A stretch of DNA of 20,886 nt, from contig CAAFPB010000278.1 of the NCBI GenBank assembly GCA_900764725.1, forward strand, positions 1-20,886, given 5' to 3'. Positions 17,728 through 20,886 of this stretch are shown here, piece after piece (positions within the stretch are counted from its first letter, which is position 1; each line of letters opens with the position of its first letter). This stretch comes from an uncultured Catenibacterium sp. (GTDB taxonomy: Bacteria > Bacillota_I > Bacilli_A > Erysipelotrichales > Coprobacillaceae). Under the pieces are notes generated by a model that saw nothing but the letters and a program-made list of their open reading frames with translations, had not been told where the DNA came from and made no database searches. The translations under genes and the position numbers were made by a program.

Positions 17728-18855
17728 ATGTTTAAAGGGAAAGAGGGTCTACATTATTTATCGTTATTTATCATCGTATGTATCACAATGAACCTCATTA
17801 TGATGTGTTTATTCATTAAGCAAGGATCATTACAGGTTATTAATAAGTATAAGAAACAATTAAAATATGAAGTCACACTATCATCTAATGATGGCAATGT
17901 AAGCATCACAGATGCGAAACAATTAACTCAAATGAAAGGTGTTAAATCATACAATTACGAACAATTAATTAATGCATCTTCACAATCACTTCAACCTGTC
18001 GCAACACGCCATTCTTTTCCTCGTATGCGTCTTACAAACTATTCTGAGGATAGTTTTCTTCTTGCAGGCTATTCTTCTATGGCACTCATTCAAGACTTTA
18101 GTTCAAAGGAATATAAACTAAAAGAAGGAAGACTTCTAAACAGTAATGATGAGAATACATCCAATGCAGTGATTTCTTATGCATTGGCTAAAAATAATAA
18201 TTTAAGTCTAGGAGACACTATTGAATTTAAAACAGAAAAAGGAGATACCACACTCACAATTGTAGGTATCTATAAGAATAAAGTAGGACTCTTAAGTCAT
18301 CTCAAGCCTTATAATACAATCTTTATTTCTTTATCAAAAGCACAGTCATTAAGTCATAATGAACAGATGCTCTCTTCAGTTACTTATTACTTAAATAAAG
18401 AAGACAAAACAGAAAACTTTATAAAGAAAGCACAAAAAACCACATTGGACTGGAATCATCTCCAGCTCACATCCAATGATGCACAATATAATGCCTGTGT
18501 TTCTATATTTGAGAATATATGTGATAAGTTAAAGATGATTCCAATTATATTATTTGTTTCTGGCTCCATCCTCTTAATACTTGTTTATCATGAAATATTT
18601 AAAACACATAATCTTATAAAGACACTCATAGTGTTTATTGTCGCATTTACTATTTCATGTTTCACAAGTCCTATTCTCTCTAAATATACAATTAATACTT
18701 ATTTATCTCAGCATGATGTAAATATGTCACAAAAAGAAACAAGAAAGATTAAAACAACCTATACACCTAGAATATTAATAGAGTCTATTGGTATTACCTC
18801 TATTATGTATCTAGAAACAGTTATTATCGCTTATAAGAAAAAGATCTCAGCCTAG
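17728..18855 (+). CDS. MacB/FtsX-like permease protein, orphan
   Basis: A 375-residue membrane protein that resembles a reduced FtsX/MacB-type ABC permease. TM1 lies at about residues 8-30. A large extracytoplasmic domain at ~31-265 has MacB periplasmic-core features (VTLSSNDGNVSITDAKQLTQMKGVKSYNY, KLKEGRLLNSNDENTSNAVISYALAKNNNLSLGDTIEF, LTIVGIYKN). Three membrane segments follow, near 270-290, 297-322 and 350-370. No ATPase gene is next to it. AAGGAGG (17714-17720) is 7 bases before ATG 17728. The gene ends in a perfect palindrome shared with the convergent gene. Export of a peptide or a mechanotransmission role is family knowledge, not shown here. Confidence 0.7.
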   Translation: MFKGKEGLHYLSLFIIVCITMNLIMMCLFIKQGSLQVINKYKKQLKYEVTLSSNDGNVSITDAKQLTQMKGVKSYNYEQLINASSQSLQPVATRHSFPRMRLTNYSEDSFLLAGYSSMALIQDFSSKEYKLKEGRLLNSNDENTSNAVISYALAKNNNLSLGDTIEFKTEKGDTTLTIVGIYKNKVGLLSHLKPYNTIFISLSKAQSLSHNEQMLSSVTYYLNKEDKTENFIKKAQKTTLDWNHLQLTSNDAQYNACVSIFENICDKLKMIPIILFVSGSILLILVYHEIFKTHNLIKTLIVFIVAFTISCFTSPILSKYTINTYLSQHDVNMSQKETRKIKTTYTPRILIESIGITSIMYLETVIIAYKKKISA

Positions 18856-18863
18856 GCTGAGAT
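18844..18863. terminator. bidirectional terminator holding both convergent stop codons
   Basis: ATCTCAGC (18844-18851), loop CTAG (18852-18855), GCTGAGAT (18856-18863): a perfect 20-base palindrome. The plus-strand stop TAG is 18853-18855 and the minus-strand stop is 18854-18852, so the loop is made of the two overlapping stops. The minus strand has a TTTTTCTT tail; the plus strand a poorer TATTTCTTTT. Confidence 0.85.
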
Positions 18864-19829
18864 TATTTCTTTTGATTTAGAGAATAGACCATATATACCA
18901 CCTGTGTGCATAAATAGAATATTCTTTGCATGATCAAATGTACCTTTTTCTAATTCATGGATCAGACCATAATATGCTTTACCTGTATAAACAGGATCTA
19001 GAATAATACCACTATGTCTAGATAAGTCAGAAATAGCTTCTAATTCTTCTTTACGGCTCAAAGAATAGCCTCTACCTACATATCCATCAATAATATGAAT
19101 ATGACTTCTGTCTACATCTTTTACATCAAGATGTGGTAATGTATCATCAATAATACTATTAATTTCTTTAATAAAGAAATCAGCATCATCACATACATTA
19201 ATACCTACAATATCTTTATTGGCTTGTCTTAATTCATTGCCTAAATATAAACCAGTATAAGTTCCTCCAGAACCTACTGCATCAATAATAGTATCAAATA
19301 CAATACCTGTCTTTTTTTCATATTCTAGTATTTCATCAAAAGCATCAATATAACCTAAAGTACCAATTCCATTACTTGCACCCATAGGAATAATATAAGG
19401 CTTACCACCTTGATCTAATACTTCCTGATAGACTTCCTGCATTATTTCATCTTTATGTGCTTGGAAATCATCATGTTCTTTTACTCTTATATCAGCACCA
19501 AGCATATGATCTAAAAGGAAGTTGGCTGTTTCAATATTTTCTCCAGGTTCTTTTCTTAGTATAAGAATACATTTTAATCCTAGTTTTGCAGCTACTGCCG
19601 CAGTAGATCTACAATGATTAGATTGGAATCCACCATTAGTAATGAGTGTATCACAACCTAAAGATAAGGCTTCAGCCACACTGTATTCTAGTTTTCTAAT
19701 CTTATTACCAGATGCCACACTATCTGTTAAGTCATCTCTTTTCACAAAAATATTAGGTTTATATCTATTTGATAGATAGTCTATTTTTTCAATAGGAGTA
19801 GGCAGCTGGGCCAAATGTAGTTTATTCAT
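18852..19829 (-). CDS. D-cysteine desulfhydrase / ACC deaminase family PLP enzyme
   Basis: The 325 residues cover the whole fold-type II PLP family of D-cysteine desulfhydrase and 1-aminocyclopropane-1-carboxylate deaminase. The N-terminal LPTPIEKIDYLS, then FVKRDDLTD, then SGNKIRKLEY with the PLP Lys43, then GGFQSNHCR around Ser70/Asn71 are family signatures. GSGGTYTGL binds the phosphate, and FMHTGGIYGLF is near the C-terminus. Bacterial members next to sulfur genes usually convert D-cysteine to pyruvate, ammonia and sulfide, so that activity is more likely than ACC deamination, but not proven. The start is ATG 19829, with AGAGGTGAT just upstream on the minus strand. It is divergent from the cystathionine gene and overlaps the permease gene by 4 bases at the 3' ends. 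Confidence 0.88.
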   Translation of the reverse strand: MNKLHLAQLPTPIEKIDYLSNRYKPNIFVKRDDLTDSVASGNKIRKLEYSVAEALSLGCDTLITNGGFQSNHCRSTAAVAAKLGLKCILILRKEPGENIETANFLLDHMLGADIRVKEHDDFQAHKDEIMQEVYQEVLDQGGKPYIIPMGASNGIGTLGYIDAFDEILEYEKKTGIVFDTIIDAVGSGGTYTGLYLGNELRQANKDIVGINVCDDADFFIKEINSIIDDTLPHLDVKDVDRSHIHIIDGYVGRGYSLSRKEELEAISDLSRHSGIILDPVYTGKAYYGLIHELEKGTFDHAKNILFMHTGGIYGLFSKSKEIISA

Positions 19830-19847
19830 GTAATCACCTCTACTAAT

Positions 19848-19875
19848 AGTATAAACGAAAAAAAGATAAAGTAAA
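19848..19875 (-). promoter_or_regulatory. candidate promoter of the D-cysteine desulfhydrase gene
   Basis: On the minus strand TTTACT (19875-19870), 16 bases, TATACT (19853-19848). The start codon is 18 bases further on. It lies back to back with the promoter of the cystathionine gene. Confidence 0.6.
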
Positions 19876-19882
19876 CCCTATA

Positions 19883-19903
19883 TTCCTATTGACATGATAG
19901 GAA
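19883..19903. promoter_or_regulatory. inverted repeat over the -35 box, candidate operator
   Basis: TTCCTAT (19883-19889) and its exact complement ATAGGAA (19897-19903) flank 7 bases and overlap the -35 hexamer. A repressor bound here would block the promoter. The same GATAGG core recurs at 19937-19942. The regulator is unknown; CymR-type control would be a guess. Confidence 0.5.
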
Positions 19904-19917
19904 ATAAGTTATATGAT
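19889..19917 (+). promoter_or_regulatory. strong sigma-A promoter of the leader/cystathionine gene
   Basis: A perfect TTGACA (19889-19894), 17 bases, and TATGAT (19912-19917). The transcript should start near 19924, giving a leader of about 210 bases before the main gene at 20134. Confidence 0.88.
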
Positions 19918-19925
19918 AGCAACAA

Positions 19926-19942
19926 CCTATCAAACAGATAGG
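19926..19942 (+). promoter_or_regulatory. 5' leader hairpin before the leader peptide
   Basis: CCTATC (19926-19931), loop AAACA, GATAGG (19937-19942): a perfect 6-bp stem at the very 5' end of the expected transcript, just upstream of the leader-peptide ribosome binding site. It may stabilise the RNA. Confidence 0.5.
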
Positions 19943-19959
19943 AGAAAGGGGTAATAACT

Positions 19960-20013
19960 ATGAAAAGACTTTTTAACACAATGTGCAGATCATGTAGTGT
20001 CATGTGTATGTAA
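19960..20013 (+). CDS. Cys/Met-rich leader peptide (17 aa)
   Basis: ATG 19960 opens a 17-codon ORF, MKRLFNTMCRSCSVMCM, ending at TAA 20011-20013. AAAGGGG (19945-19951) lies 8 bases upstream. Three Cys (TGC, TGT, TGT) and three internal Met fall in the last ten codons, a density far above that of ordinary proteins. Position, length and residue bias match the class of ribosome-stalling leader peptides that sense the supply of charged tRNA, as in the trp, his and ilv operons. Here the amino acids would be cysteine and/or methionine, and the downstream gene belongs to their metabolism. The last codons overlap the first of three alternative RNA hairpins. Expression of the peptide is inferred. Confidence 0.75.
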   Translation: MKRLFNTMCRSCSVMCM

Positions 20014-20099
20014 TACACAATAGAGTACTTTCATGGTCATTGTGCATTTTTGTATTGGTGCAGAATTGTGTAATGCAATGCTGCTTTTTTTGTACTCTA
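20003..20099 (+). promoter_or_regulatory. transcription attenuator with mutually exclusive RNA pairings
   Basis: Segment 1, TGTGTAT (20003-20009), pairs with segment 2, ATACACA (20013-20019), over the leader's last Met-Cys-Met codons and stop. Segment 2 can instead pair, as TACACAAT (20014-20021), with ATTGTGTA (20065-20072), which contains the left arm of the terminator. A ribosome stalled on the Cys/Met codons would cover segment 1 and favour this antiterminator. A ribosome reaching the stop would cover segment 2 and let the terminator form. A further 8-bp match, TAGAGTAC (20021-20028) with GTACTCTA (20092-20099), would enclose the terminator. No T-box TGGNACC or SAM-riboswitch core is seen. 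Confidence 0.65.
20060..20091 (+). terminator. attenuator terminator upstream of the cystathionine gene
   Basis: GCAG (20060-20063) and ATTG (20065-20068) pair with CAAT (20076-20079) and CTGC (20081-20084), with one A-G mismatch and a 7-base loop, followed by seven T (20085-20091). It lies 42 bases before the start codon of the gene it would shut off. Confidence 0.75.
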
Positions 20100-20133
20100 A
20101 ATTAGAAAAATAAATTAATTGGAGGAAAATAAA

Positions 20134-20857
20134 ATGAAATATGAAACACTTGCGATTCATGCTGGAGAACGTACTGAAGGTGTTCCTGGTGTGAATGTCC
20201 CTATAGAATTATCAACAACATTTGTTCAAAAAGGAATCCATGATTATCAGGATTACCAATATTCACGAGGAAATAATCCTACAAGACATTATCTTGAAAC
20301 ACTTGTAGCAGATCTAGAAGGTGCAAAATATGCACTTGCAACTTCTAGTGGTATGGCTGCTTCATCTTTAGTATTTGGCTTATTAAAGGAAGGAAATCAT
20401 GTACTCTTTAGTTCTAATGTATATGGTGGTACATTCCGTTATTTCTCTAACTTATTTGAAGATAGAGGAATAAAGGGAGAACTTGTAGATGATGTGAATA
20501 ATCTTAAAGAAGAAGATTTAAAGGATGTAACAGCCATCTTTATTGAAACACCGTCTAATCCATTATTAGAGGTTTATGATATAGAACATATTGCATCACT
20601 TGCACATGCAAATAATGCGTTATTAATTGTAGACAATACATTTCTGACATCATATTTTCAAAAGCCACTAGATTTTGGTGCTGATATTGTAGTTTATTCA
20701 GCTACTAAGTATTATGGTGGTCACTCAGATGTGATTGCTGGGCTGGTTGTCACAAATAATGATGATCTTTACACAAAACTAAAGTTTCTTCATAACACTT
20801 ATGGGAATATTCTTTCGCCTTTTGATAGTTTCTTGCTTCAAAGAGGAATTAAAACAT
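20134..20857 (+). CDS. cystathionine gamma-synthase/lyase family PLP enzyme, 3'-truncated by contig end
   Basis: This is the first 241 residues of a ~380-residue Cys/Met metabolism PLP enzyme (PF01053, fold type I). Signatures are TLAIHAGE at the start, Y(S)RGNNPTR, ATSSGMAA for the PLP phosphate, Tyr98 in NVYGGT, ETPSNPLL, the PLP-ring Asp167 in VDNTF, and the Schiff-base Lys192 in YSATKYYGGHSDVIAG. Cystathionine gamma-synthase, beta-lyase, gamma-lyase and O-acetylhomoserine sulfhydrylase cannot be told apart from this part. ATG 20134 follows GGAGGA (20121-20126); the in-frame TTG at 20119 is not needed. The gene does not truly end here: the apparent TAG at 20857-20859 is created by adapter sequence, and relatives continue RGIKTL at this point. 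Confidence 0.92.
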
Positions 20858-20886
20858 AGATCGGAAGAGCACACGTCTGAACTCCA
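20858..20886 (+). other. Illumina TruSeq adapter sequence (assembly artefact)
   Basis: The last 29 bases begin AGATCGGAAGAGC and continue with the standard Illumina TruSeq read-1 adapter to the end of the window. They are not genomic. They should be trimmed, and everything read through them, including the stop codon at 20857-20859, should be ignored. Confidence 0.98.

Follow-up and report, generated by a model that had tools for sequence, protein, structure and literature searches.

Known leader attenuators and the Catenibacterium leader

A His leader is predicted in bacilli (PMC2965389) and predicted His-leader attenuators are described in six Erysipelotrichales species (Catenibacterium included), the Bacillus cereus group and Eubacteriales (PMC9413887). 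In Listeria monocytogenes, Rli60 is a leader-peptide transcription attenuator that was tested experimentally (PMC5864092), and in Acholeplasma a candidate phenylalanine upstream open reading frame (uORF) precedes aroF (PMC8632094). Cysteine leader peptides have been reported in the actinobacterial genera Mycobacterium, Propionibacterium and Bifidobacterium (PMC1262725), and that of M. smegmatis, the subject of a Mol Microbiol 2020 study, is termed translation attenuation in a paper that cites this study (PMC13236596). In Rhodobacterales, a Cys-leader motif that includes an intrinsic terminator, uORFC-8-2, has been predicted upstream of cysS (PMC8632094). The present account concerns a stretch of 20,886 nucleotides from an uncultured Catenibacterium sp. 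(contig CAAFPB010000278.1; hereafter the window), in which the leader of a cystathionine synthase/lyase gene is probably a ribosome-mediated transcription attenuator that senses the supply of cysteinyl-tRNA.

Like the Erysipelotrichales his leaders, which were predicted by sequence comparison and include one from the same genus, the Catenibacterium leader combines a leader peptide, a terminator and an antiterminator; unlike them, it has spaced cysteine codons and precedes a PF01053 gene (PMC9413887). Rli60 likewise belongs to Bacillota and is a leader-peptide transcription attenuator, subject to an additional layer of control by a DNA-binding repressor, but concerns branched-chain amino acids and has been tested by experiment (PMC5864092). 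The uORFC-8-2 motif resembles the Catenibacterium leader in its uORF with Cys codons located in a stem, its intrinsic terminator and its presumed sensing of Cys-tRNA, and is set apart, by description, by its occurrence in Alphaproteobacteria, its cysteinyl-tRNA synthetase gene and its tandem Cys codons, usually at 14-15 (PMC8632094). The actinobacterial leaders are also short reading frames that contain cysteine codons and precede sulfur amino acid genes, but they carry runs of Cys codons and are described with no conserved terminator (PMC1262725). The remark in the first-pass annotation that a leader of this kind was not known in Bacillota was too strong, as leader-peptide attenuators have been published there (PMC2965389, PMC5864092, PMC9413887); for cysteine, none was found in Bacillota in the literature searched (open-licence papers, partly listed). 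The kind of switch is already known, and the Catenibacterium leader is probably an example of it that looks new; its cysteine specificity before a transsulfuration gene appears new in Bacillota.

Leader ORF and RNA elements

The leader and the gene that it precedes comprise the following elements:

19940 to 19951, plus strand: Shine-Dalgarno-like stretch of the leader open reading frame (ORF), AGGAGAAAGGGG (passes the Shine-Dalgarno filter, 4/6)
19960 to 20013, plus strand: leader peptide ORF, MKRLFNTMCRSCSVMCM plus stop, 17 codons, ATG at 19960, TAA at 20011-20013 (sequence, preceded by a ribosome-binding site)
19980 to 19994, plus strand: segment 1, spanning codons Met8 to Cys12, pairs with 20032-20048 (folding)
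20003 to 20019, plus strand: inner hairpin that takes in the final codons and the stop, 20003-20009/20013-20019, the 1:2 hairpin of the first-pass annotation (folding)
20014 to 20021, plus strand: left arm of antiterminator A, TACACAAT, pairs with 20065-20072 (0.90 with the ribosomal A site at Cys12)
20032 to 20048, plus strand: segment 2, within which 20038-20046 forms the left arm of antiterminator B, pairing with 20067-20075 (folding)
20060 to 20091, plus strand: intrinsic terminator, stem-loop 20060-20084 followed by T7 at 20085-20091 (sequence, folding)
20134 to 20857, plus strand: cystathionine gamma-synthase/lyase family gene (PF01053, Cys/Met pyridoxal phosphate-enzyme family), cut by the contig end

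A promoter is followed by a short ORF with a ribosome-binding site (RBS), presumably translated, that is enriched in codons for the amino acid of the pathway, and an intrinsic terminator stands between this ORF and the gene. Transcription would start near 19924, and a ribosome would translate the 17-codon leader. With cysteine plentiful, the ribosome would finish and leave, and 19980-19994 would pair with 20032-20048; with segments 1 and 2 paired, the terminator at 20060-20091 would form and the gene would be off. When Cys-tRNA is scarce, the ribosome would stall at Cys9 or Cys12 and cover segment 1, leaving 20014-20021 and 20038-20046 free to pair with 20065-20075. This antiterminator pairing would break the left arm of the terminator, and the cystathionine synthase/lyase gene would be read through. 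Such a cysteine-responsive attenuator of the trp/his type, already proposed in the first-pass annotation, is supported by masked folding, by codon content and by the place before a PF01053 gene. The reading is based on sequence elements and predicted thermodynamics, from which we infer leader translation, stalling, termination, read-through and the response to cysteine.

The ORF, its RBS and its content (3 Cys and 3 Met in codons 8-17 of MKRLFNTMCRSCSVMCM) agree in their coordinates with the earlier description. Cys and Met make up 1.0% and 2.4% of the 4918 codons of 13 window genes; at this codon use, the chance of at least 3 Cys in 16 codons is ~5e-4 and that of at least 6 Cys plus Met ~1e-5. 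Among 215 RBS-preceded ORFs of 8-40 amino acids in the window, counted on both strands with nested starts taken separately, 4 hold at least 3 Cys, and a single one (1/215), the leader ORF at 19960-20013, holds at least 6 Cys plus Met after its start. Cys9, which lies inside segment 1, is the rare codon TGC (5 of the 49 Cys codons counted in the window). The predicted sensing of cysteine is well supported by the anatomy of the leader.

The hairpin reported earlier over the last codons and the stop is present. However, the strongest 1:2 pairing, which joins 19980-19994 to 20032-20048 in a hairpin (19980-20048) of -22.9 kcal/mol, had been overlooked, as had the second antiterminator, B (20038-20046/20067-20075). 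The 8-bp alternative pairing that had been proposed holds: 20014-20021 (TACACAAT) and 20065-20072 (ATTGTGTA) are perfect reverse complements of each other.

The terminator stem consists of 4 bp, an A/G mismatch and 5 bp (-7.6 kcal/mol for 20060-20084), and, as had been noted, its T7 ends 42 bases before the structural ATG at 20134. A 25-nt hairpin of -7.6 kcal/mol or lower followed by T7 occurs in 0/2000 shuffles of 19830-20133, a criterion taken from the real terminator itself. A simple terminator scanner did not list 20060-20091; a cruder hairpin scan flags it as one of three hairpin/T-run stretches in the leader.

Two further observations were made around the terminator. A second ORF, 20033-20113, spans it (26 codons, 2 Cys, no clear RBS), and TAGAGTAC (20020-20027) and GTACTCTA (20092-20099) form an 8-bp inverted repeat around it, present in read-through RNA only, which may be due to chance.

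Predicted effect of ribosome position

Masked folds run from the front edge of the ribosome (the A-site codon +12, or +15) to 20086, a point by which the whole terminator hairpin has been transcribed while the polymerase still holds the U run. In the free leader, the probability of the terminator reaches 0.96 and that of the segment 1:2 pairing 0.87 when the fold begins at 19960, and 0.87 and 0.56 when it begins at 19952. With the +12 edge, the terminator stands at 0.78 with Asn6 and 0.68 with Thr7 in the A site, at 0.08, 0.16, 0.08, 0.07 and 0.02 with Met8, Cys9, Arg10, Ser11 and Cys12, and at 0.17, 0.74, 0.54, 0.40, 0.11 and 0.15 with Ser13, Val14, Met15, Cys16, Met17 and the stop codon. The +15 edge moves the profile by one codon (Thr7 0.08, Met8 0.16, Cys12 0.17, Ser13 0.74, Met15 0.40, Cys16 0.11, Met17 0.15, stop 0.25). 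Antiterminator A is dominant with the A site at Cys12 (0.90) and shares with antiterminator B at Met8-Ser11. In these predicted folds, the antiterminator and the terminator exclude each other, and a stall at the regulatory codons favours the former. Because the terminator is low at Cys9 and Cys12 under both edges, the stall zone predicted to open the gene holds these two codons.

Shortage of either Cys- or Met-tRNA had been proposed to open the gene; the first half of this proposal agrees with the folds, whereas methionine sensing may occur, but is supported no further than by composition and by the low terminator at Met8 and Met17. A joint sensor of cysteine and methionine, in which Met8, Met15 and Met17 would be regulatory too and either shortage would open the gene, is unlikely: six Cys plus Met codons in the 16 after the start (1e-5) and the values at Met8 (0.08) and Met17 (0.11) favour it, but the terminator persists at Met15 (0.54 or 0.40, depending on the edge), the 3 Cys are already improbable by themselves (5e-4), and the general demand for Met-tRNA would make Met codons less specific. 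The same masked-folding switch would also serve control by an arrest peptide, in which the ribosome would be halted by the nascent leader peptide, either by itself or together with a drug or metabolite; as the abundance of Cys in front of a gene for sulfur amino acids would speak for the sensing of codons, this alternative is highly improbable.

In the trp attenuator of Escherichia coli, the regulatory codons lie in segment 1 and the stop codon between segments 1 and 2. The Catenibacterium leader has the same arrangement; unlike in trp, its stop probably lies so far from segment 2 that a ribosome parked there would leave this segment unmasked and, in the calculation, keep the gene on. The comparison with trp made in the first-pass annotation is apt for the predicted switch by stalls at regulatory codons and fails at the stop codon, where the ribosome does not restore the terminator in silico. 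Termination in plenty would then have to rest on quick release and re-pairing of segments 1 and 2. The stop-codon result counts against the trp form and not against leader-peptide attenuation as such.

Controls and opposing evidence

In dinucleotide shuffles of 19960-20054 with the terminator kept, 0/659 show, at the positions used for the real leader, a difference as large as its 0.87; these positions were picked post hoc, with the real profile already in view.

Several points weigh against a cysteine-sensing attenuator, beginning with the fact that the case rests on one sequence. Masked folds disregard the RNA behind the ribosome and the kinetics of folding. A ribosome at the stop codon keeps the terminator low (0.15-0.25), in contrast to the textbook trp case. 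A fold from 19924 gives a terminator of 0.56 (to 20086) or 0.03 (to 20091, with the U run free to pair), lower because the 5' end competes. Arg10 and Ser11 (and Thr7 at +15) lie in the low-terminator zone, and their shortage could therefore also act. When the best six-codon window is left free for each shuffle, 52/2641 (2%) do as well as the real leader. Random synonymous recodings reach the observed value in 40/604 cases and average 0.46, so that the peptide and the sequence downstream already account by themselves for some of the switch; the actual codon choice, according to the model, helps the switch and is not essential to it. Finally, the stability of the 140-nt core is unremarkable (z -0.91; 32/200 shuffles).

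A terminator that is constitutive or decorative, next to a chance ORF and with no regulation, is favoured by the 52/2641 shuffles that give an equal switch somewhere in the ORF, and an RBS-preceded ORF with at least 3 Cys does arise in 75/2000 dinucleotide shuffles of 19830-20133. An RBS-preceded ORF with at least 3 Cys and at least 6 Cys plus Met, on the other hand, arises in only 5/2000, and the comparable terminator in 0/2000, which leaves this explanation a very slim chance.

The 213-nt leader as a whole is unusually stable (z -2.72; 3/200 shuffles). That it folds better than 197/200 shuffles would suit an uncharacterised riboswitch or a protein-bound RNA with an incidental short ORF, and the two inverted repeats at the promoter (below) suggest that a protein may act at the DNA level too. 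The switch is, however, tuned to Cys-bearing codons, and no Rfam family reaches its cut-off in the leader (weak matches only, E at least 0.11), making this alternative very unlikely. T-box and SAM (S-box) riboswitches were considered and rejected, as the leader has no match to the Rfam model of either. In the same Rfam search, SAM riboswitches occur in 5/36 comparison loci and lie directly before the matched gene, on the same strand, in one (L039).

Promoter, repeats and neighbouring genes

Upstream of the leader ORF and before the structural gene lie four further elements:

19885 to 19901, no strand assigned: possible operator, an inverted repeat (CCTATTGACATGATAGG) that overlaps the -35 (sequence)
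19889 to 19917, plus strand: promoter TTGACA-17-TATGAT (11/12 consensus matches)
19926 to 19942, no strand assigned: inverted repeat CCTATCAAACAGATAGG just 3' of the expected transcription start, possible operator or 5' RNA hairpin (sequence)
20121 to 20125, plus strand: RBS of the structural gene, GGAGG (TTGGAGGAAAATAAAATG) (sequence)

The promoter at 19889-19917, absent from the first-pass annotation, would place the transcription start near 19923-19925 (~19924). As the window holds 9 promoter-like sites against 11.1 expected, this promoter is notable for its quality alone. Both repeats share CCTATY-N5-GATAGG (CCTATYNNNNNGATAGG), which had also gone unnoticed; with up to 2 mismatches, this pattern is matched at 12 places when both strands of the window are counted, vs 2.46 expected, the pattern being derived from the same two promoter sites that it describes. 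The paired repeats look like the mark of a second layer, in which a repressor would control the same promoter.

The intergenic region 19830-20133 is flanked by two divergent genes, a D-cysteine desulfhydrase-family gene on the minus strand (18852-19829; TIGR01275 match above its cut-off) and the gene starting at 20134. The product of the latter, the last gene of the window, is identical over 240 compared residues to P0002 (uncultured Catenibacterium sp.; Erysipelotrichales, Coprobacillaceae). The proteins P0002-P0014 are 88-100% identical over the query, and public contigs accordingly contain such genes. For full-length P0002, 0/25 NCBIfam models among the matches listed reached the curated cut-off; the nearest are cystathionine gamma-synthase and gamma-lyase, all below cut-off, and the best relatives of solved structure bear the names cystathionine gamma-synthase and bifunctional gamma-lyase. 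On these matches, the enzyme may be either a synthase or a lyase. The contig end, 20858-20886 (AGATCGGAAGAGCACACGTCTGAACTCCA), we take to be Illumina TruSeq adapter; the apparent stop at 20857-20859 would therefore be an artefact and the gene cut. At the other end of the window, the stretch 2-524 holds what is presumably the C-terminal part of a TnpB-like protein, judging by its zinc-ribbon end, and after it a RAGATH-18 RNA (452-524).

Relatives of the gene and its leader

In a scan of genome contigs, relatives of the gene turned up at 6 loci, with 40-47% identity; none of the titles assigns its locus to Erysipelotrichia, and one gives no group. With TypA as query, 63 genomes of a 101-genome sample matched at E 1e-150 (identity up to 60%) and 72 of a 249-genome sample at E 1e-240 (identity up to 62%). 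The sampled phylum and class genomes look like Clostridia and Bacilli, and Erysipelotrichia are probably placed in another phylum of the sampled taxonomy. The cystathionine gene matched 0/398 genomes at E 1e-125 and, with the same draw setting, 80/398 at E 1e-95 (best identity 54%); a 61-genome sample around the genome of L004 gave no match at an over-strict cut-off. Viral contigs hold 5 relatives at 38-41% identity and 0 matches to the leader DNA pattern, and all 1382 plasmid records lie below 60% identity. Among the sequences reached in these searches, none could be recognised as DNA of Erysipelotrichia.

Distant orthologues were surveyed at 36 loci, namely 30 from the best 32 of 109 places plus L001, L002, L003, L005, L009 and L010; left out were L004 and L006, whose titles do not name Bacillota, the viral L011-L015, and L007 and L008, which repeat the genes of L004 and L005. 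The 420 bases scanned lie upstream of the match rather than of a re-annotated start, and at some loci cover another gene, as in L010. An RBS-preceded ORF with at least 3 Cys occurs upstream in 0/36 survey loci, a result that says nothing about Erysipelotrichia. Five of the 36 (L002, L003, L009, L010, L026) have one with 2 Cys, followed in two (L003, L009) by a terminator-like hairpin.

Other PF01053-family genes are also preceded by strong hairpins (-18.1 to -23.3 kcal/mol) that have T runs, in L020, L024 and L025 (each at 1335-1384), L045 (1267-1315) and L009 (1458-1495); no Rfam family reaches its cut-off in any of these five loci.

Possible grading and meaning of the switch

The two antiterminators raise the prospect, a rather doubtful one, of a graded sensor, in which one 17-codon leader would read the supply of both Cys and Met and set transsulfuration flux, the stall site selecting the antiterminator. 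On this equally doubtful scheme, stalls at Met8/Cys9 would give A and B, a stall at Cys12 would give A, and a stall at Met17 (partly Cys16) would give B. If true, it would have no described precedent in Bacillota as a Cys(/Met) leader-peptide transcription attenuator, within the open-licence literature searched. Should the cysteine-sensing attenuator itself be real, leader-peptide attenuation in this gut lineage would reach from histidine to sulfur amino acids, which would raise the question whether Coprobacillaceae use attenuation where other Bacillota use T-boxes and S-boxes. Control by cysteine would also favour a cystathionine lyase (cysteine-making) role for the PF01053 enzyme.
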